A stretch of 64,000 nucleotides of DNA, taken from contig CANPYW010000009.1 of NCBI GenBank assembly GCA_947588745.1, forward strand, positions 1 to 64,000. Reading direction: 5' to 3'. This stretch comes from Candidatus Gastranaerophilales bacterium (GTDB taxonomy: Bacteria > Cyanobacteriota > Vampirovibrionia > Gastranaerophilales > Gastranaerophilaceae). Below, piece after piece: positions 15,097-57,642 of the stretch (positions are counted from its first letter, which is position 1; each line of letters opens with the position of its first letter). The position numbers were made by a program, and so were the translations under genes. Below the pieces are notes generated by a model. The model ran no database searches and was not told the origin of the DNA. It saw only the letters and a program-made list of their open reading frames with translations.

Positions 15097-16479
15097 ATGG
15101 AAACCGTAACAAATAAAACCCTTGAAAAATTAAAATATGATTTGGTTCGTGACGGACTTGTAAGCTATGAAGATATCGAAAAAGCTCATGAACTTGCGAT
15201 ATCACAGAATGTAAACATCGGTCAGATATTAATAAAATCCAATTTAATAACGGAAGAAGTTTTACTTAAATTTTTGGAAAGTAAGCTTCATATTCCTTAT
15301 GTGGATTTAAAAGACTATACTTTGGATACAAGATGCTTATCATATATAAATTTTAACGATGCCCAAAAGTATAAAATCATACCGCTGTTTAAAATAGAAA
15401 ACGTTTTAACAGTTGCAATGGCTGACCCGCTTGATTTATTTGCCATTGATAAAATAGTTGAGAAAACAGGGTGCGAGATAGACCCGGTAATTTCTGCCGA
15501 AACACTAGTATTAAAAAAGATTGAGGAATATTATAATTCGGACAGCTCGGTAGGCGAGATAAATTTAGAGAATTCCGAAGTAAAATTCGATTGGAGAGAA
15601 GAATTACACAACGATGTATTATCGGACGAGCATACGCAAATATTAATCAGAGCCATATTAAAACAGGCAATAATTAATAATGTCCACGAAATGTTCTTTG
15701 AACATGTTCCAAACGGATTAAGCGTTAACTTCAGATACGGAACGGAAATAGTAAATACGGGGCAAATTCCCTCGGTACTTGTAGTTGCATTTATATCAAA
15801 ATTAAAAACATTATCCGCATTGGATGCAAATGTATGCGAATTGCCCCAGCTCGGAAAACTTGTATTTAAAGTTGATGATATACTGTTAACGGCAAGTATT
15901 TCGGCATTTCCGACAATAAACGGCGAAAGAATTTCATTAAAAATATATAAACCGCCAAAACGGTTAAGCGAAATAGGATTTACCGAAACTCAAATAAATA
16001 CAATATTAACCGAAACGGAACGCCCCGGAATAACACTCGTTTGCGGTTCTAACCTCTCCGGCAAAACGCATATAGTTTATTCCATATTACTTGAGCTTGC
16101 AAATTCCAAAAAGAATATAATGACCATTGAGTCGATAGCAAAATACAATTTAGCAAACGTAAATCAGTGTGAGCTAAACGAAAATATCGGATTTGATATA
16201 GATAAAGCCATGCGGTTTATCGAGTTTCAATCTCCCGATTTGATTTATTTTGAGGGAATAACAAGTAAAAATGCACTGGATTATTTCAGCTCGCTGGTGT
16301 TCAAAAACAAAGTATTGATAACGGAATTTTTAGCCGATAATATGGCCGATTTGAACAAAAAACTGTCATACAATGATTTTGAAATGTTCAGACCACTTAT
16401 AACAACAATAATATTTGTTCACGGTAAAAATAAAATAGAAGTTTTTGACAGACAAGATTTGAAGAAATTTATAAGATAA
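15097..16479 (+). CDS. Degenerate GspE/PilB-type secretion ATPase
   Basis: The 460 residues begin with a GspE N-terminal (MshEN-like) domain, residues ~1-150, the type that can bind c-di-GMP in other proteins. A PilB/GspE-like ATPase core follows. Walker A GSNLSGKT is intact at 317-324. The Walker B/Asp-box region, which in GspE reads roughly QDPD-x4-GE-IRD, is here QSPDLIYFEGITS. The His box typical of TLHTN is replaced by ITEF. Family members are usually ~560 residues and carry a four-cysteine zinc site, which is absent. It may bind ATP but hydrolyse poorly, so a regulatory ATPase is plausible. It is the third gene of the kinase-receiver operon. Confidence 0.8.
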   Translation: METVTNKTLEKLKYDLVRDGLVSYEDIEKAHELAISQNVNIGQILIKSNLITEEVLLKFLESKLHIPYVDLKDYTLDTRCLSYINFNDAQKYKIIPLFKIENVLTVAMADPLDLFAIDKIVEKTGCEIDPVISAETLVLKKIEEYYNSDSSVGEINLENSEVKFDWREELHNDVLSDEHTQILIRAILKQAIINNVHEMFFEHVPNGLSVNFRYGTEIVNTGQIPSVLVVAFISKLKTLSALDANVCELPQLGKLVFKVDDILLTASISAFPTINGERISLKIYKPPKRLSEIGFTETQINTILTETERPGITLVCGSNLSGKTHIVYSILLELANSKKNIMTIESIAKYNLANVNQCELNENIGFDIDKAMRFIEFQSPDLIYFEGITSKNALDYFSSLVFKNKVLITEFLADNMADLNKKLSYNDFEMFRPLITTIIFVHGKNKIEVFDRQDLKKFIR

Positions 16480-37628: not shown

Positions 37629-38720
37629 ATGAGTGAGTTTGATATAAATATGTTATTAAAAAAGGCTGTAGAGATTAAAGCTTCGGATGTTCATTTTATT
37701 GTGGGGGAGGTTCCTTCATTTCGTATTGACGGTAAAATAATTAAATCAAAGCTTCCTCCGGTTACGGAAAATGATATGCTGAAATCTATTGATGACATTG
37801 CACCGGTATCTATGCGTGATAAAATATTTAAGTCTTATGATTCTGATTTTCCCTACGAAATAGAAGGAATTTCACGTTACAGAGTTAACCTTGCAATGAC
37901 TTTCGGTTATCATTCCATGACTATTCGTCTTGTTCCTTATGATATTCCGACTTTTGAACAATTGAAATTACCTAAAAATATTGAAAATTTTTCTAAAGCG
38001 GATAATGGTATTATTCTTGTAACAGGAGTCGCAGGTTCAGGTAAATCCACCACAATTGCTTCAATGCTTGAACATATTAATTTAACTCAAAAAAAACATA
38101 TTGTAACCATTGAGGACCCTATCGAATATGTTTATAAAAGTAAAAAATCCATTTTTACCCAGCGTCAAATCGGTGTCGATACTTCAGGTTATTTAGACGG
38201 ACTTAAATTTGCTTTAAGACAAGACCCTGATGTTATTCTTATAGGTGAAATAAGAGATATGGATACTGTTCAAAGTGCATTACACGCAGCTGAAACAGGG
38301 CATTTAGTTTTTGCAACACTCCATACATTTAATGCAATTCAGACCATCAATCGTATTTTAAGCTTTTTTCAGCCTACGGAGCGTGATGCCGTACGTGGAC
38401 AATTTGCTGAAGTTTTCAGAGGTTCTATTTCTCAAAGACTTTTGCCGTTAGCTCAAGGCAGCGGCAGAATTCCTGCCGTTGAAATGCTCTTTTCGACTGC
38501 CACAATCAAAGATTTTATTATTAAAAATGAACTTGAAGAAATCTACAAGCTTGTTCAAAAAGGTTCTTACGATGATATGATTACGTTTAATATGTCTTTA
38601 TATAATTTGTATAAAAAAGGATTAATCACAAAAGAAGCCGCTATGGCCAACAGTGATTCTCCAAATGAGCTTATGCACTACATAAGAGGTGTTTATTCAG
38701 GCAGCGATTCCGGTTTTTAA
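37629..38720 (+). CDS. pilT: Type IV pilus retraction ATPase PilT-like
   Basis: This hexameric ATPase should power pilus retraction. Its 363 residues match PilT/PilU length. Walker A is GVAGSGKST at 133-141. The Asp box (TIEDPIEYVY), Walker B (DPDVILIGEIRD) and His box (TLHTFNAIQTINRIL) are complete. The C-terminal half is typical of retraction rather than extension motors, though the usual AIRNLIRE motif is altered to IKDFIIKNEL. AGGAG is near the ATG. It leads a plus-strand run with recO (3 bases) and deoC (1 base), an operon without obvious functional logic. Confidence 0.9.
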   Translation: MSEFDINMLLKKAVEIKASDVHFIVGEVPSFRIDGKIIKSKLPPVTENDMLKSIDDIAPVSMRDKIFKSYDSDFPYEIEGISRYRVNLAMTFGYHSMTIRLVPYDIPTFEQLKLPKNIENFSKADNGIILVTGVAGSGKSTTIASMLEHINLTQKKHIVTIEDPIEYVYKSKKSIFTQRQIGVDTSGYLDGLKFALRQDPDVILIGEIRDMDTVQSALHAAETGHLVFATLHTFNAIQTINRILSFFQPTERDAVRGQFAEVFRGSISQRLLPLAQGSGRIPAVEMLFSTATIKDFIIKNELEEIYKLVQKGSYDDMITFNMSLYNLYKKGLITKEAAMANSDSPNELMHYIRGVYSGSDSGF

Positions 38721-40261: not shown

Positions 40262-40945
40262 ATGGAAAATAAATCAAGATTAAATCAATCGCATAATTTA
40301 CCCGGTACGCTTGTTTGCGTTGAGGGTATTGACGGTTCTGGCAAATCAACACAATTAATTATATTAAGGGATTGGCTTAAATCACTTAAGCAGGATGTTA
40401 TTTTTACCGAATGGAATTCTTCCGATTTGATTTCTCAGACAACAAAATTAGCCAAAAAGAAAAACCTGCTTAGTCCCAGAACTTTTTCGCTTCTGCACGC
40501 CGTCGATTTTGCAGATAGACTTGAACAGGTTATTATTCCCGCATTAAAAGCAGGGTTTATAGTGCTTGCAGACAGATATGTCTATACGGCTTTTGCACGT
40601 GATGTTGCAAGAGGTGTTGACAGAAACTGGGTTCGTAAAGTATACGGATTTGCCGTAAAACCTGATTTAACCTTATATTTTAGAGTAACGGAAGATGTTT
40701 CTTTGGAAAGAATTTGTTCAAATCGTGCACCAAAGTTTTACGAAGCAGGTATGGATTTGAAAATAAGCAGCGACCCTTACGAAAGTTATAAAATTTTTCA
40801 AAAAAGGGTAAATGATGAATATAAAAGTATGATAAACGAATACGGGCTTGTTGAAATCGATGCAAATGAAAGTATTCATAATAAGCAGGTATTTTTTAGA
40901 GAAAAAGTAAAAGAAGTTTTATCACAAAAAGGAATTTTTCTGTAA
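40262..40945 (+). CDS. Thymidylate-kinase-like nucleotide kinase, first of a tandem pair
   Basis: This 227-residue P-loop kinase has GIDGSGKST (22-30), as in dTMP kinase. DRYVYTAFARD corresponds to the DRY motif. A region FADRLEQVIIPAL replaces the usual substrate helix. The canonical TREPGGT loop of thymidylate kinase is absent; TEWNSSDL stands in its place. It may therefore be a diverged dTMP kinase or a kinase with another nucleotide substrate. No strong Shine-Dalgarno is seen. The second copy begins directly after its stop. Confidence 0.75.
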   Translation: MENKSRLNQSHNLPGTLVCVEGIDGSGKSTQLIILRDWLKSLKQDVIFTEWNSSDLISQTTKLAKKKNLLSPRTFSLLHAVDFADRLEQVIIPALKAGFIVLADRYVYTAFARDVARGVDRNWVRKVYGFAVKPDLTLYFRVTEDVSLERICSNRAPKFYEAGMDLKISSDPYESYKIFQKRVNDEYKSMINEYGLVEIDANESIHNKQVFFREKVKEVLSQKGIFL

Positions 40946-41605
40946 ATGACGGGATATAAATCAAAACATGGCTATGACGGCTTATTAATAGTAATTGAAG
41001 GTACTGACGGTTCGGGTAAATCAACTCAAATCAGCAGGCTTAAACGCTGGATTGAAGACCAATCTTACGGTGCCATGGTTAGCGAATGGAAAACTTCCAA
41101 ATTTATTGCCGATGCTATTAATGATGCCAAGGATAGAAATCTGTTAAATGCAACAACATTTTCTCTTTTATATGCGGCAGATTTTGCGGACAGATTGGAG
41201 CAGGTTATTATTCCCGCATTAAAAGCAGGGTTTGTTGTAATTTTGGACAGATATATTTATACCGCTTATGCTCGTGATACCGTAAGAGGTCATGATATTG
41301 AATGGCTCAAAAATCTTTATGATTATGCACCTGAACCTGATATGGTTTTTTATCTTGATGTTCCCGTTGAAATTCTTTTAAAAAGAATTATAGGTACAAC
41401 AGGGCTTGATTATTGGGAATCCGGCAGGGATATCGGTTTAAGCAACGATTTTTACAAAAGTTTTCAAATTTATCAAAGCAAATGTCTTGAACAATATCAT
41501 AAAATGATTGATGAATATAATTTTATTTCCATTGACGGAACTTTAAGCGAAAAAGATATTCATAAAAAAATTATTGAAAAAGTTGAAAATATTTTAGAAA
41601 TTTAA
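40946..41605 (+). CDS. Thymidylate-kinase-like nucleotide kinase, second of a tandem pair
   Basis: The 219 residues are about half identical by eye to the gene just upstream. The P-loop is GTDGSGKST (19-27), the DRY region is DRYIYTAYARD, and it shares the FADRLEQVIIPALKAGF block. Again TREPGG is replaced, here by SEWKTSKF. The ATG touches the previous stop. The pair probably arose by duplication and may act as a heterodimer or on different substrates. dTMP kinase is essential, so at least one copy might fill that role unless a canonical tmk exists elsewhere. Confidence 0.78.
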   Translation: MTGYKSKHGYDGLLIVIEGTDGSGKSTQISRLKRWIEDQSYGAMVSEWKTSKFIADAINDAKDRNLLNATTFSLLYAADFADRLEQVIIPALKAGFVVILDRYIYTAYARDTVRGHDIEWLKNLYDYAPEPDMVFYLDVPVEILLKRIIGTTGLDYWESGRDIGLSNDFYKSFQIYQSKCLEQYHKMIDEYNFISIDGTLSEKDIHKKIIEKVENILEI

Positions 41606-41655: not shown

Positions 41656-41982
41656 ATGAAAAAAATAGATTATTCTAACTTTGAACTAATAGAAAATATA
41701 ATTAAAGATATTAATTTTAATTATAAAAAGGACAGTTATGAAAAATTAGATAATATTAAATATTACTGGATTGAAACCATTGGTAATAAAATTTCAAAAT
41801 TAACTAAAGTTTACAAAATAACGGACGATAATATACTTACAATAATATGTGCAGATTCTTATGCGGCAAATGAATTATATTTATCTAAAGAAAAAATAAT
41901 TAAAATTTTGAATGAAAAAATTGAAAAAATGGGAATTAAAATAGAAGATATAATATTTAGTTATAAACAATGGAAAGAATAA
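41656..41982 (+). CDS. DUF721/DciA-like protein
   Basis: This 108-residue protein has the DUF721 layout: WIETIGNKISKLTK near residue 35, then a K-homology-like beta-alpha segment with LTIICADSYAANELYLSKEKI (core ADSYAANEL), and a final KMGIKIEDIIF strand. In many bacteria DciA recruits or loads the replicative helicase in place of DnaC. Members lacking the C-terminal tail, as here, also exist. Its stop lies close to the start of the pseudopilin gene (41985). Confidence 0.75.
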   Translation: MKKIDYSNFELIENIIKDINFNYKKDSYEKLDNIKYYWIETIGNKISKLTKVYKITDDNILTIICADSYAANELYLSKEKIIKILNEKIEKMGIKIEDIIFSYKQWKE

Positions 41983-41984
41983 AC

Positions 41985-44150
41985 ATGAGCAACAAAAATA
42001 AAAAAGGATTTTCTCTTGCAGAACTTTTAATATCATTACTTATTATAAGTTTGGTATTATCTGCTGCAATACCTACAATAACAAAGCGTTCCGGATCAAG
42101 TAGAGAGCAAATATGGCATTGGGTTGAAGCAAATTCTGATATTTTTTATGGTACAGGAGAAGAACAAACTGCAATATTAGGCTTTCAAGCTTTACCTGCT
42201 AGTATGACTTATTTTTTTAGTCAATATGGTGATGAACCAACTATAAATGCCGATGCGGATAAACTTGCTATCTTTCAACAAATTCAAGATGGTAAAAGAG
42301 TTTTTGAAAAATCTCAGATAGGTTTTTATACGGTTAATAAAAATTCCGGTTCTTCAGGAGGAAACGATATTAAATATGCAGGAAGATTAGCCTTAGATAG
42401 AACTAATATGGCACTTGGTATAGGCTCACTTCAATCACTAGAAAATAATGTTTCAAGCAATACAGCATTAGGTCATTATGCTTTATATCATAATGATAAA
42501 GGAGGTTCAAATACTGCCGTTGGTTATTATTCACTTGCTAATTTAAGTCGTGCTGCTGATACTAACAGTAATAAGGCTAATACTGCTATTGGTATGGGTG
42601 CTTGTTCAAGTATTTCTAACGGAAGTAACAACATTTGTTTGGGTAATTATTCGGGGTATGATCCTAATGGTGGAGAATTTACCGTTAAACCGGGTATTGT
42701 TTACACAAATAATATAAGCAACAGAATATTTATAGGAAATAATAATATTAAAACTGATGGTTCGCCGGAATATTATAATGCCGATATAATAACCGGCTAT
42801 ACATATTATTTAAACGGAAAATATGATAAAGAATTAGATGTTAATACAAAAAAATTCCAAGTAAGAACATTTGACGGCATGCAGCCAATGTTTAGCTTAA
42901 TAGCCGATAGAGGTTCTATAACGAGTGATGATGATATAAGCAAAATAGGTATAGGTTATAATAATACCCAAAATGAATACAAAGGTAAATCCGAATTCAA
43001 ATATTATATAAACGGAAATTCAATAGAATCACCTGCAAGTAAAATAGAAACTACCGGTTCAGGTAATGAAATTAGAGTCAAAACATTCTTTGCCTCTTCA
43101 GCATCTGATCCAAACTTAAAAAAATATAAAGGTTCTATTAATATAAATGATAACGCTTTATCTTATCAATTTACAGATTCTACAAAAGATCCAACAAAAA
43201 AGAAATATAAAGTTGAAATGAGTTCAGATTATGAACTTGGTATTTCTTCTTTAAATTCTTCCGTTGATATTGGTGCTAAAGACGAAATGAATTTAATAGC
43301 TAGTTCTTCTACAACTGCAAGTGCAGGAATTTTATTATCTTCAACATCAACAGAAAATAAAATCGAAGTAAAAGCTTCAAATAATGATTTTATGAAATTA
43401 TCATCCAAAACAGATGAAGGATTTAAAGTTTCTACAAACCAAAAAATTAATCTATTTGCTGCAAAAGATAATAATATCAGTGGTAAATCTGTTAACATAG
43501 CAACTTCAGGTAAAGACGACGGAAATGATATAAACCTTTCTTCTGAAAGAAATGTAAATATCAGTTCCAAAAACGCAAGCAATATTAGTTTATCTTCAGC
43601 AAAAGATATTAACTTAATAACAACAGACGGAAAATATATAAACATAGGTTCTCAATCAAATCACATTAACATTGTAGATAGGAAAATTGATAACGTTGCA
43701 GATGTAATGATTAACAACTTAGGTTCTGTTAAAACAAAACTTAACGAGCTTTTACAGAATTATTATTCCGATATTAGATTAAAAGAGAATATCAGCGATA
43801 ATAATGCCGGTTTAAAAGAAATAAACGAGTTAAAGGTTAAAAATTACACTTATAAAGATGATAAAGAAAAAATTCCTCACGTAGGTGTAATTGCTCAAGA
43901 TTTGCAAAAAGTATTTCCTAATTCGGTTACCGAAGATAAAAATACTGGGTTCTTAAAAATCAGAAAAGAAGAAATATTCTATGCAATGGTTAACTCCATT
44001 AAAGAATTATTCTCTCAACTTCAAGAATTAACAGCAAAAATAACAGGGCTAGATAAACGCATTACGGAACTTGAAAAAGAAAATCAAATGCTCAAAAAAC
44101 AAAATGAAGATTTTGAAAAACGTTTATCAAAACTTGAAAGTAAAAAGTAA
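41985..44150 (+). CDS. Pseudopilin carrying a C-terminal peptidase S74 chaperone domain
   Basis: I start it at ATG 41985 with GGAAAGA 7 bases upstream (721 residues). The N-terminus is a class III prepilin signal: KKG|FSLAELLISLLIISLVLSA, with cleavage after G8 and the conserved glutamate E13. The middle carries repeats of the NTALGHYALYHNDKG / NTAVGYYSLAN type (~160-235), as in trimeric autotransporter heads and phage tail fibres. Many short repeats rich in S, N, I and D follow (~430-570). The C-terminus matches peptidase S74 (SDIRLKENI..., HVGVIAQDLQKVFP), a self-cleaving trimerisation chaperone of tail spikes, and ends with a coiled coil. No clear TM besides the pilin helix. Confidence 0.85.
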   Translation: MSNKNKKGFSLAELLISLLIISLVLSAAIPTITKRSGSSREQIWHWVEANSDIFYGTGEEQTAILGFQALPASMTYFFSQYGDEPTINADADKLAIFQQIQDGKRVFEKSQIGFYTVNKNSGSSGGNDIKYAGRLALDRTNMALGIGSLQSLENNVSSNTALGHYALYHNDKGGSNTAVGYYSLANLSRAADTNSNKANTAIGMGACSSISNGSNNICLGNYSGYDPNGGEFTVKPGIVYTNNISNRIFIGNNNIKTDGSPEYYNADIITGYTYYLNGKYDKELDVNTKKFQVRTFDGMQPMFSLIADRGSITSDDDISKIGIGYNNTQNEYKGKSEFKYYINGNSIESPASKIETTGSGNEIRVKTFFASSASDPNLKKYKGSININDNALSYQFTDSTKDPTKKKYKVEMSSDYELGISSLNSSVDIGAKDEMNLIASSSTTASAGILLSSTSTENKIEVKASNNDFMKLSSKTDEGFKVSTNQKINLFAAKDNNISGKSVNIATSGKDDGNDINLSSERNVNISSKNASNISLSSAKDINLITTDGKYINIGSQSNHINIVDRKIDNVADVMINNLGSVKTKLNELLQNYYSDIRLKENISDNNAGLKEINELKVKNYTYKDDKEKIPHVGVIAQDLQKVFPNSVTEDKNTGFLKIRKEEIFYAMVNSIKELFSQLQELTAKITGLDKRITELEKENQMLKKQNEDFEKRLSKLESKK

Positions 44151-44168: not shown

Positions 44169-44206
44169 AAAAAAAGAGTTAAGAAATAAATCTTAACTCT
44201 TTTTTA
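44169..44206. terminator. Bidirectional terminator between the pseudopilin and pgk
   Basis: AAAAAAGAGTTAAGA (44170-44184) pairs with TCTTAACTCTTTTTT (44191-44205) around a 6-base loop, between convergent stops. Confidence 0.9.
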
Positions 44207-55639: not shown

Positions 55640-56443
55640 ATGCCTGAATATACCATTAATTATGATGAAATTGGCGAGTGGCTTAATTTATATAAAACAA
55701 CTAAGGATGAAAAACAAAAAAAACATTTACAAAATATTATAGTGGTTGCCGCTATGCCATTGGTAAAAAAAATTGCAAGAGGTCTTGCCAGAAGAAATAC
55801 AGACCCTGTTGAAGATATTATTCAAGTGGGCAGTGTAGGACTCGTTAAGGCTATTCAGCTTTATAACCCCAAAGTTAGCAATAATTTCAGAACCTATGCT
55901 ACTTATCTTATAACGGGTGAAATAAGGCATTATTTAAGAGATAAAGTTTCAATGATAAAAGCTCCACGTGAAATTTATGAGCTTGCATATCGTGTTAATA
56001 AACTTATGCAGCAGCTTAAAGATGCAGAAGGTAATGAACCTTCCGAAACTATTCTGGCTGAAGAACTCGGTACATCCGTAGGCAAAATAAAAGAAGTTAT
56101 TGACGTTGAAAGAAGAAAACAGACTATTTCTTTAGATCAAATTATTACTACGGGAAATGATGAATCTCTATCTTTGTTTGATAAGATTGCGGACGATAAT
56201 CATTACAATCTTGAAACATTTCAGGAAGATAAAATTTTAATTAACGATGCAATTCAAAAATTGGATGAAAAACTTCAAAAAGTTGTTATTATGAATTATT
56301 TTGAGGATTTAAGCCAAACGCAAATCGCCGCAAAACTCGGTATTTCTCAAATGCAGGTTTCAAGGAGGCTTAAAAAAGCATTAAACATGCTTTTAAATAT
56401 ACTTTCAGAAAAAGAAAACAAAAGAAATGATGAAAGATTATGA
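55640..56443 (+). CDS. RNA polymerase sigma factor of the SigB/SigF/SigG (sigma-70 group 3) type
   Basis: I prefer ATG 55640 (267 residues, MPEYTINYDE) with GAGAGG 10 bases upstream; ATG 55592 with GGTGGA only 3 bases away is the alternative. Region 2 (RNTDPVEDIIQVGSVGLVKAI, DxIQVGxxGLxKA), the -10-binding RTYATYLITGEIRHYLRD (core TYATYLITGEIRHYLRD), and region 4 (LSQTQIAAKLGISQMQVSRRL) are all intact. SigF of cyanobacteria, of this type, controls pilus genes. Its stop overlaps the start of the prepilin peptidase gene by 4 bases (ATGA-type), so the two are co-translated. No anti-sigma gene is adjacent. Confidence 0.93.
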   Translation: MPEYTINYDEIGEWLNLYKTTKDEKQKKHLQNIIVVAAMPLVKKIARGLARRNTDPVEDIIQVGSVGLVKAIQLYNPKVSNNFRTYATYLITGEIRHYLRDKVSMIKAPREIYELAYRVNKLMQQLKDAEGNEPSETILAEELGTSVGKIKEVIDVERRKQTISLDQIITTGNDESLSLFDKIADDNHYNLETFQEDKILINDAIQKLDEKLQKVVIMNYFEDLSQTQIAAKLGISQMQVSRRLKKALNMLLNILSEKENKRNDERL

Positions 56444-57642
56444 TTGAAATTATTTTAGTAATTTGTTTATTCGTATTTATTACAGGTGCGTGTATAGGGA
56501 GTTTTTTAAATGTAATTGCTCTGAGAGCATTATCAAAAGAATCTATAATTTTACCGCCTTCAAAATGTCCGAAATGTAAAGAGCATATTAAATGGTATGA
56601 TAATATTCCCATAATATCTTATTTTTTGATATTTAAAGGTAAATGCAGAAGTTGCGGATGTAAAGTCAGCATTCAATATCCGATTGTTGAATTTTTAACG
56701 GCAGTTATATTCTTATTAGTATACTGCTTTTACGGTTTTTCAATTAAATCTTTGTTATTGTTAATTTTATTATGTACATCAATTGTTATAATAATTACGG
56801 ATATTAAAGAAAATGCCGTTTTTGACCGTCACAGCTGGATATTAATAATAACGGCACTTATTTATTCCGTTTATATAAAGGGTATAGAAAATTATTCGTT
56901 TGCTGTTATAGGGCTTATAACAGGTGTTTTGGCTATGGAAATTATAGCCAGATTATCTTATTATTTGGTTAAGAAAAAAACGGTGGAAGATAAACCTCAA
57001 ATTGAAGAAAATACCGAAAAAGCTTCCGATTCTGATAATCAGGAACAAAATCAGCAGGCAGAATGTAAATCTGATAATGAACAAATTGTTGAGCAAAATA
57101 TAGAACAAAATGTTGAACAAAAAGAGGAACAAACTCCGGAACAAAACGATGAGCAGAATAATGATATTGACTTAAATATAAATGAATATGTAGAAAAAAA
57201 TAAACGTGCATTCGGAGAGGGTGATACATATATAGTTGCAGCTTCAGGTGCAATTTTAGGCTGGAAGTATTTACTTTTGACCCTATTTTGTTCAATAGTA
57301 TTACAGGCATTATGTATATTGCCCCAGTTTATTATGAATTTATACAGAAGTAAACAATACAGATTATTAATATCACTTTTAGGGTTTTTTGTATTTGCGG
57401 TTATTTATTTTACAATATCTAATATTATAACCATGAATGTATATATGGCAGTGGGTATAATTGTATTTTTAGTTTTCTTTGCGATTGATTCAATTGTAAA
57501 TCTAAAAAAGATGACAAATCAAGAAGGTTTTATAGCTATTCCGTTCGGGCCGGCTTTATTATTAACCACCTATATAGTATTGTTTTTCGGTAAGTATATC
57601 GCAGAATTCTTAAATAAACACGTGTTTATGATGATTGTCTAA
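56440..57642 (+). CDS. Type IV prepilin peptidase with an internal Glu/Gln/Asn-rich insertion
   Basis: This membrane aspartic protease cleaves and methylates prepilin signals. The cytoplasmic cysteine site (C43, C46, C69, C72) and first catalytic aspartate D121 (TDIKENAVFD) are present. The second catalytic site G-x-G-D has D262. Between them is a ~70-residue low-complexity stretch (~176-245, repeats like EQNIEQNVEQ). An extra C-terminal set of helices makes the protein 400 residues against ~250-290 usual. It is coupled to the preceding sigma factor gene and should process the pseudopilin at 41985. Confidence 0.9.
   Translation: MIEIILVICLFVFITGACIGSFLNVIALRALSKESIILPPSKCPKCKEHIKWYDNIPIISYFLIFKGKCRSCGCKVSIQYPIVEFLTAVIFLLVYCFYGFSIKSLLLLILLCTSIVIIITDIKENAVFDRHSWILIITALIYSVYIKGIENYSFAVIGLITGVLAMEIIARLSYYLVKKKTVEDKPQIEENTEKASDSDNQEQNQQAECKSDNEQIVEQNIEQNVEQKEEQTPEQNDEQNNDIDLNINEYVEKNKRAFGEGDTYIVAASGAILGWKYLLLTLFCSIVLQALCILPQFIMNLYRSKQYRLLISLLGFFVFAVIYFTISNIITMNVYMAVGIIVFLVFFAIDSIVNLKKMTNQEGFIAIPFGPALLLTTYIVLFFGKYIAEFLNKHVFMMIV

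Follow-up and report, generated by a model that had tools for sequence, protein, structure and literature searches.

The window, as we call the whole 64,000 nt stretch of Candidatus Gastranaerophilales contig CANPYW010000009.1 that was analyzed, carries on its + strand a gene at 41985..44150 whose product of 721 amino acids was matched by both Pfam and NCBIfam models. Reading of the open frames of the window placed the start codon (ATG) at 41985 and the stop codon at 44148-44150, in agreement with the position given in an earlier note on this DNA. A second in-frame ATG at 41970, which falls within the upstream gene dciA, was disfavoured because short leaders are typical of relatives (5-10 residues in 68 of 88 related proteins, counted from the nearest upstream ATG). 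This one open reading frame joins a prepilin signal, NTAxG repeats, a divergent fibre region, a peptidase S74 domain and a coiled coil.

The dciA gene (41656..41982, + strand, Pfam DciA 5e-9) ends 2 nt before the S74 pilin gene, which sits in the housekeeping cluster tmk-tmk-dciA and outside any pilus operon. Neighbours matched by Pfam were the housekeeping genes tmk, tmk, dciA, recO, pgk, a GHMP kinase and dnaN. A 15-pair hairpin followed by a T-run (44170..44205, given here without strand but listed on the - strand by the consensus scan) is a candidate terminator between the S74 pilin gene and the convergent pgk; the scan was weak, with 2 found against 1.7 expected in shuffled sequence. A prophage gene at this locus was rejected in view of the housekeeping neighbours, and the phage records (ten listed of 66) match only the C-terminal stretch of the protein, residues 542-686.

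The N-terminus reads MSNKNKKG|FSLAE, with G8 at -1, F9 at +1 and E13 at +5. This class III prepilin signal, already recognized in the earlier note, was matched above cut-off by Pfam N_methyl (residues 4-29, E 7.5e-7, 28.9 bits against 21.2) and by NCBIfam TIGR02532 (22.3 bits against 16.3). With the signal and a domain not peculiar to type IV pilus biology (Peptidase_S74, 1.4e-17) in the same chain, the protein has the domain make-up of the modular type IV pilins. The leader peptide (residues 1-8, 41985..42008, + strand) ends at G8, and prepilin peptidase is predicted to cut between G8 and F9. The hydrophobic pilin helix which follows (residues 9-33, 42009..42083, + strand) is conserved among genus members, the mean pairwise identity of residues 1-33 being 0.82 in 25 of them. 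Residues 34-140 (42084..42404, + strand) form a putative pilin globular part or linker, with a mean identity of 0.42 and invariant W44 and W46 in the 25 genus proteins of set A1; Pfam gave no match above cut-off in this part.

Among 51 fused relatives, the window protein included, residue -1 was Gly in 36, Ala in 13 and Ser in two, and Phe occupied +1 in 47. Glu at +5 was demanded by the search pattern for the prepilin signal and was therefore not counted as evidence; likewise the 88-protein set, A1 (25 proteins) and A2 (46 proteins) were selected by the prepilin Glu and an SDx[RK]xK-like motif, and invariance of these in the three sets is by construction. Phe at +1 and Glu at +5 are features for filament packing.

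Between the two ends the earlier note had described NTAxG-type repeats, and four such motifs were found, beginning at residues 159, 176, 199 and 216 (spacing 17, 23 and 17) in a beta-roll-like region of mostly period 17 (residues 141-225, 42405..42659, + strand). The divergent fibre region (residues 226-594, 42660..43766, + strand) shows low identity among genus members. The window protein matched PHROGs tail-fibre families (up to 3e-18), and Pfam searches of it returned no YadA head or anchor at E<=1 and no recognizable ligand-binding domain.

The core of the S74 intramolecular chaperone (residues 595-650, 43767..43934, + strand) was matched by Pfam Peptidase_S74 over residues 595-648 with an E value of 1.4e-17 (64.1 bits against a curated cut-off of 22) and contains the motif SDIRLK (S595, K600). 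The S74 match seen in the earlier note is confirmed at the C-terminus, and SDxxxK is present; among the 60 open S74 reading frames followed by coordinate, SDxxxK was found in all and SDxRxK in 59. A cut is predicted just before S595, with S595/K600 as the dyad, and the released piece would be 127 residues long instead of the approximately 120 proposed earlier. The C-terminal part (residues 651-721, 43935..44147, + strand) contains a coiled coil whose heptad core positions (689-717) are conserved in the 25 genus members, with Asn700 and Asn707 (25/25) in 'a' positions and Leu or Phe in 'd'. A core of this kind is more familiar in parallel dimers than in trimers. In PDB the C-terminal part was matched best by the ICA domain of myelin regulatory factor (MYRF; 7dc3, 5.7e-5), which has an S74-type C-terminal domain in common with the window protein, and nothing was matched outside that part. 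Myelin regulatory factor is a eukaryotic transcription factor.

Genes for PilT, a GspE-like ATPase and a prepilin peptidase had also been placed in the window. A PilT-like ATPase (37629..38720, + strand, Pfam T2SSE 5.6e-43; the name PilT comes from reading of the protein, not from a PilT-specific model) and a prepilin peptidase-like protein (56440..57642, + strand, Pfam A24_N_bact 3.8e-30) bear this out, but the GspE-like paralogue (15097..16479, + strand, with MshEN) matches T2SSE only in part, over residues 177-383. It was rejected as the assembly ATPase, since a full-length one is encoded on another contig of the same genome. That genome also encodes a secretin, two T2SSF proteins and five other N_methyl matches.

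The fusion of pilin and S74 is a conserved gene family across the order, the middle of which changes very fast. Open S74 reading frames numbered 60 and came from 42 of 58 genomes of Candidatus Gastranaerophilales, an order of gut bacteria related to cyanobacteria, and kin; they were taken by coordinate, so their S74 features are unselected, and the prepilin signal was, even here, assessed with a pattern requiring Glu at +5. An in-frame prepilin signal was present in 51 of the 60, as the earlier reading of both domains in one protein would have it, six were cut by contig ends and three (G032:C4, G019 and G043) had no in-frame signal. In G032:C4 a prepilin signal lies upstream in another frame, and the G019 frame begins 121 nt from a contig end. 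Two 35-aa S74 fragments with stops (G028:C99, G015:C52) were left out of the 60. A wider family set, whose stretches were hand-picked from the family-level matches listed, had the signal in 46 of 54 S74 rows; in a count of 57 rows, again with 46 bearing the signal, seven were truncated at the end of a contig or stretch, one was a 179-aa piece and three, representing the two genes G076 and G086, were unfused. Six of the 46 signal-bearing rows lacked an in-frame ATG ahead of the signal. In other families of the phylum 12 S74 genes were found, and none of the eight with a visible 5' end was fused; two relatives on viral contigs were searched for a prepilin signal, which was absent. That prepilin signal and S74 share one open frame across many independent genomes rules out an assembly or annotation artefact. 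The two outcomes which the earlier note had named as refuting it, an insignificant S74 match and an artefact of one genome, were thus checked and excluded.

Copy number varied between lineages. A single open S74 frame was found in 33 of the 35 genomes of the window's genus, and 11-12 S74 matches each were present in G116, G332 and G404 among the family matches listed. Exactly three matches occurred in 16 of the 20 genomes listed for genus g23 (three others have four, at least one has none), and three tandem copies were seen in five of seven genomes of families f6 and f7. The paralogues are of unequal length. The S74 pilin gene adjoins dciA in 30 of the 35 genomes of the window's genus and also in G223, which belongs to a different genus. 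When 25 dciA loci were read, a prepilin frame was found just downstream in three (G008 and G032 of the window's genus, and G223, where it is a full fusion with S74); the other 22, some of them in S74-bearing genomes, had no prepilin frame after dciA. A prepilin-pattern match inside dciA of G112 was attributed to chance.

Mean identity among the 25 genus members was 0.26 for residues 226-330 and 0.17 for residues 331-590. In two sister genomes DNA identity was 96%-97% on both sides of the gene and 44% within the fibre; the four pairs compared in this way were chosen rather than drawn. The sharpest fibre difference was between the sister genomes G027 and G020. Each of these fibres still finds its closest match in the other, at about 40%, so a swap of unrelated modules is not demonstrated. 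Constant ends with a hypervariable fibre were also observed between copies within one genome, not only between species. For 78 of 88 fusions the variable part was matched by another fusion at E<=1e-3, the window protein being among the other 10. Fibre identity partly tracks species distance (Spearman 0.42 with tmk; locus L033 is cut, and the value it gives for tmk1 comes from a cross-match to tmk2). Shufflon-type inversion at the locus was unsupported: the inverted repeats were only imperfect and AT-rich, and no Shufflon_N was found by Pfam at E<=1. YadA_head, the head repeat of trimeric adhesins, was matched in 14 of the 46 wider relatives, the best at 1.1e-51; these 46 include several paralogues that share a genome.

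The combination of N_methyl and S74 is already in print. In the excerpts of Raynaud et al. 2021 (PMC8179133) the pair IPR012902-IPR030392, identical to that of the window protein, is among the 15 commonest modular-pilin architectures, so the suggestion of a new kind of fibre or adhesin in the earlier note is not supported. That class is listed there without study, with S74 taken as a peptidase function of pili, whereas we read S74 as a self-removing intramolecular chaperone and add data on conservation, copy number and hypervariability. Autocleavage by S74 in a bacterial fibre is described for Bd3182 of Bdellovibrio (PMC10769870). From what the excerpts of that source describe, the S74 subgroup of the MAT fibres resembles the present family, as we propose to read it, in being cellular, surface-exposed trimeric beta-fibres with a C-terminal S74 and SDxxxK, in a multi-member repertoire (13 S74 members) with a constant N-terminal part and a variable tip; by description they differ in having a signal peptide, followed by a conserved beta domain of ~130 aa, in place of the class III prepilin signal and helix (PMC10769870).

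Among pilins, TcpB and CofB are, like the protein proposed here, large minor pilins with a beta-rich C-terminal trimer, modelled with three pilin domains atop the pilus, but S74 and self-cleavage are unmentioned for them in the excerpts of the source (PMC9565799), and no sequence match to CofB or TcpB was found among PDB chains at E<=1. The PilV adhesins of IncI plasmids, which decide the target cells, are comparable as minor pilins with a constant N-terminal part and a variable adhesive C-terminal part; as the excerpts have it, their variation arises by DNA inversion through Rci (PMC9045228), whereas here constant parts flank the variable part on both sides. With the YadA trimeric autotransporters the family has in common the head repeats of the 14 relatives mentioned above, and it differs in its S74 C-terminus and N-terminal pilin signal, no YadA membrane anchor having been matched in the 46 at E<=0.01.

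We think it rather probable that the gene encodes a modular minor type IV pilin which carries a trimeric, self-maturing adhesin at the pilus tip. The trimer, both cleavages, incorporation into a pilus and a ligand are what we infer. The class III signal would insert the chain into the inner membrane, and prepilin peptidase would cut after G8, where its motif is observed. Three chains would meet through the C-terminal S74 and coiled-coil part, and the NTAxG repeats and beta-rich fibre would fold as a trimer in the periplasm, a step suggested by the S74 family and by the YadA_head repeats of relatives. Once folded correctly, the observed S595/K600 dyad would cut before S595 and shed the 127-residue chaperone, leaving a fibre chain of 586 residues (9-594). 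The three pilin helices may then sit on top of a type IV pilus, in the way modelled for TcpB/CofB trimers. That pilus, for which machinery genes are observed, would bring the fibre out to the surface by way of the secretin. There the exposed, fast-evolving fibre may bind glycans or other features of gut surfaces, as its hypervariability, the Bdellovibrio MAT fibres and the PilV adhesins suggest.

Constant ends, a hypervariable fibre and YadA_head in relatives fit a trimeric surface adhesin. Against one at the pilus tip stand the Asn 'a' core of the coiled coil, the locus outside a pilus operon, Ala or Ser at -1 in 15 of 51 relatives, the missing YadA_head of the window protein, the unmatched CofB/TcpB and the fact that no ligand-binding domain was recognized. 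The locus would also suit a membrane-anchored trimeric fibre outside the pilus, with the helix as anchor only and the fibre periplasmic or brought to the surface by another route. MYRF, matched best in PDB by the C-terminal part, is an S74-type protein which is membrane-anchored and self-cutting, and passage of very long fibres through a secretin could be hampered. We nevertheless regard such an anchor as rather unlikely, given Phe at +1 in 47 of 51, an assembly system with secretin in the genome and a hypervariability which fits exposure to the outside.

A DNA-capturing or pilus-initiating tip protein, whose fibre would serve as spacer instead of adhesin in a ComZ-like minor pilin role, would draw on the DNA-metabolism genes nearby (recO, dciA, tmk), on the dciA link in most of the genus and in G223, and on ComZ itself, described in the excerpts of PMC8179133 as a minor pilin with a DNA-binding beta-solenoid module. 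DNA being a constant ligand, one would not expect it to cause the fibres of sister genomes to diverge or many paralogues to arise, most dciA loci read have no prepilin frame after them, and we hold this role to be improbable. Slightly more doubtful still are heterotrimeric tips in some lineages, with three paralogous S74 pilins in one mixed trimer: the threefold matches in g23 and tandem triplets in f6 and f7 would suit them, but not the single frame in most of the window's genus, the 11-12 matches in three genomes or the unequal lengths of paralogues. That a prophage tail-fibre gene came to lie behind a pilin start through chance capture or misassembly is extremely improbable despite the S74 and PHROGs tail-fibre matches, in view of the fusion in 51 of 60 open frames, the same neighbours across most of the genus, the housekeeping character of those matched by Pfam and the two viral-contig relatives without a prepilin signal.

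As a tentative extension of the tip-adhesin reading, gut Melainabacteria might display on their pili a repertoire of receptor-binding fibres of phage type, in which S74 self-cleavage would serve as quality control and let only correctly folded trimers reach the tip. The fibre, diverging fast between its two constant ends, both at one locus and across as many as a dozen paralogues, would act as a diversity-generating adhesin system, an equivalent of the Bdellovibrio MAT fibres but pilin-anchored. If right, the tip-adhesin reading would show the pilus pathway placing a phage-type self-maturing trimer on the cell surface, and the S74 'peptidase' of S74 pilins would serve folding and release, not target digestion. 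It would also point to the molecules by which uncultured gut Melainabacteria choose their attachment targets, and sister genomes which differ mainly in the fibre would be expected to differ in binding.

The 721-residue product of the plus-strand gene at 41985-44150, the S74 modular pilin, starts with the class III prepilin signal that had been claimed for it, MSNKNKKG followed by FSLAELLISLLIISLVLSAAIPTITK, with a predicted cut after G8. Two models exceeded their cut-offs there, Pfam N_methyl at 7.5e-7 (28.9 bits; cut-off 21.2) and TIGR02532, the prepilin domain model of NCBIfam, at 22.3 bits (cut-off 16.3). The C-terminal peptidase S74 domain was confirmed by Pfam at residues 595-648 (1.4e-17, 64.1 bits, cut-off 22) and contains the motif SDIRLK, and the NTAxG-type repeats were located as motifs starting at residues 159, 176, 199 and 216, a spacing of 17 being the most frequent (eight proteins). 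PHROGs searches returned phage tail-fibre families (up to 3e-18), the top solved structure by sequence was the MYRF chaperone domain (5.7e-5), and a family-profile search added the phage tail fibre structure 8jov (1.1e-4). A coiled coil with core positions 689-717 lies C-terminal to S74.

Judged from its genus, the host probably falls in the gut order Candidatus Gastranaerophilales, which belongs to the Melainabacteria, a non-photosynthetic group; its 2.0 Mb assembly (94% complete; the window sits on contig C9) contained one S74 match. Across 58 genomes including this one, S74 was found in 42, including every one of the 35 genus members. The search gave 62 matches, from which two short fragments with stops were dropped and 60 ORFs were traced by coordinate. 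SDxxxK was present in all 60 and an in-frame prepilin signal in 51, the residue preceding the predicted cut being Gly in 36 of these, Ala in 13 and Ser in 2; six ORFs ended at contig ends and three had no in-frame signal. An assembly or annotation artefact in one genome was therefore ruled out, as the fusion recurs in related genomes. The three exceptions were in G019, where the ORF begins 121 nt from a contig end, in G043, from another family, and on contig G032:C4 (locus L040), where a prepilin signal stands in another frame 164 nt ahead of the start of a 954-aa S74 ORF; a frameshift, a sequencing error or a phase switch could each account for the last.

In a phylum-wide draw S74 was found in 107 of 386 genomes, with 11-12 matches per genome reached in G116, G332 and G404. 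A wider set of 40 stretches, hand-chosen from the listed rows of this draw, and 12 loci from other families gave 57 S74 ORF rows which satisfied the pattern used: 46 had the signal, seven were cut, one was a piece of 179 aa, and the remaining three, representing two genes, were unfused, both genes falling outside the order. No prepilin signal was found in the 12 S74 genes from other families of the phylum, the 5' end being visible in eight. Within the genomes searched, the fusion looks like a trait of the gut order, judging from these sequences. In most of the listed genomes of genus g23 (loci L202-L206) there were three S74 pilin paralogues, at loci such as L202 as two in a row and one convergent, and in five of seven genomes of families f6 and f7 three stood in tandem (L038, L043, L051, L065, L071); such triplets may form a heterotrimer or serve as three separate adhesins.

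Alignment of 25 genus members, in each of which Pfam matched S74 and N_methyl, revealed constant ends around a variable fibre. Mean pairwise identity was 0.82 over residues 1-33, then 0.42 over 34-140 and 0.47 across the NTAxG part; it sank to 0.26 in 226-330 and 0.17 in 331-590, and rose to 0.76 in the S74 core and 0.70 in the C-terminal part. At the 28 loci with all three markers mean identity was 0.90 for tmk and 0.18 for the fibre. Between genomes G027 and G020 the DNA flanks were 97.0% and 96.4% identical over 1800 bases each side of the gene, fibre identity fell to 0.44 (40-column windows) and S74 regained about 0.77. This difference is strong divergence or a related allele and not an unrelated module, because the two fibres remain mutual best matches at about 40%. 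In a second pair (L032/L034; flanks 86% and 84%) the fibre dropped to 0.35, and two further pairs showed a milder fall (lowest window 0.67 with flanks of 86-90%, and 0.71 with flanks of 93-94%). The constant-variable-constant shape was common to paralogues inside one genome: amino-acid identity for helix, fibre, S74 and C-terminal part was 0.96, 0.33, 0.92 and 0.96 among eight long copies in G332, and 0.96, 0.42, 0.87 and 0.78 among six copies in G116.

A Pfam search of 46 more diverse fusions, several of them paralogues from one genome, matched S74 in every one, N_methyl in 40 of them and YadA_head in 14, the best YadA_head match being at 1.1e-51. YadA heads are trimeric beta-rolls in adhesins. 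For the genus, YadA_head was not among the best 25 of 52 families. Since Pfam did not find it in the window protein itself, we infer a trimeric beta-roll there from the protein's repeats and its kin.

The S74 modular pilin gene stands outside any pilus operon, and dciA (41656-41982) ends 2 nt ahead of it. This helicase-loader gene is an odd neighbour for a pilin, and evolves fast in the genus: its mean identity is 0.55, while that of the two adjoining tmk genes is 0.90. It lies directly upstream of the S74 pilin in 30 of 35 genus genomes, preceded by tmk in 28. Among 25 dciA loci from other genomes, a prepilin ORF was found just 3' of dciA in three, two from the window's genus and one (L261, contig G223:C10) from another genus of the same family. 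The link thus predates the genus, since in G223 the ORF after dciA is again an S74 fusion, yet it is not general. The interval 40262-41605 contains two neighbouring genes that resemble thymidylate kinase (matches to Pfam Thymidylate_kin at 8.6e-25 and 1.7e-30); in most members of the genus the pair stands upstream of dciA.

The pilus genes which the earlier note had placed in the window were borne out for a PilT-like ATPase (37629-38720) and an A24-type prepilin peptidase-like protein (56440-57642), in which the N-terminal A24 domain was the sole domain matched at E<=1e-5; the latter gene has a long Glu/Gln/Asn-rich insert in its middle. The GspE-like ATPase with an MshEN domain (15097-16479) matched the T2SSE model in part only; it may be a paralogue, degenerate or regulatory, of the full ATPase encoded on contig C37. 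Elsewhere the genome encodes a single secretin match, whose cluster also includes a T2SSF protein and a T2SSE ATPase of full length, as well as a second T2SSF protein; N_methyl matches number six in the whole genome, including the S74 modular pilin. With secretin, T2SSE, T2SSF, PilT-like and A24-type genes present, a pilus or pseudopilus able to accept the S74 modular pilin is plausible. Type IV pili genes are reported for another Melainabacterium, Vampirovibrio chlorellavorus, in the portion of the source available (PMC4451040).

We propose that the protein is a modular minor pilin bearing a trimeric fibre. The sequences show both signals and the catalytic motif, the occurrence of the fusion across the order, a variable middle between constant ends, and genes for the machinery. 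The prepilin would be cleaved after G8, the fibre would form a trimer, S74 would cut before S595 to free 127 residues, and the product may stand at the pilus tip and serve adhesion. Against a trimeric adhesin count two conserved Asn residues (700 and 707) that occupy 'a' positions of the coiled coil, an arrangement more familiar from dimers, and the finding that Pfam recognised no ligand domain in the window protein. Each precedent for these steps comes, in our analysis, from a separate system, as described in the accessible parts of the reports. The minor pilins TcpB/CofB are homotrimers modelled with three pilin domains topping the pilus (PMC9565799), a precedent for the tip trimer; the bacterial fibre Bd3182 undergoes S74 autocleavage at the motif serine, abolished in S782A (PMC10769870), as suggested here for S595; and PilV minor pilins have variable adhesive ends (PMC9045228), resembling the variable fibre.

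The earlier note's observation held, and its reading held for a fusion present in the order; the suggestion of a new kind of fibre did not, the prepilin-S74 architecture having been listed previously. Searching InterPro for the prepilin motif with an extra domain, Raynaud et al. (2021) distinguished 264 architectures among more than 1,200 modular pilins (PMC8179133). The bare pairing is already in print, because the text available of that paper names IPR030392 (S74), read as 'peptidase activity', among the 15 commonest. Among open-licence PMC papers we found no dedicated study of the prepilin-S74 class, by phrase searches that can overlook papers (one also missed Raynaud et al.), and none of pili and adhesins in Gastranaerophilales or of tail fibres in Melainabacteria. 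The papers that did come up were the Bdellovibrio MAT-fibre paper and, judged by title and abstract, one on ETEC and a yeast probiotic and one on a Sinorhizobium phage. The present analysis adds that the fusion is conserved across the order, that the S74 matches form repertoires numbering up to a dozen, that relatives carry YadA-type heads, and that at a fixed locus the fibre is hypervariable while both ends stay constant.
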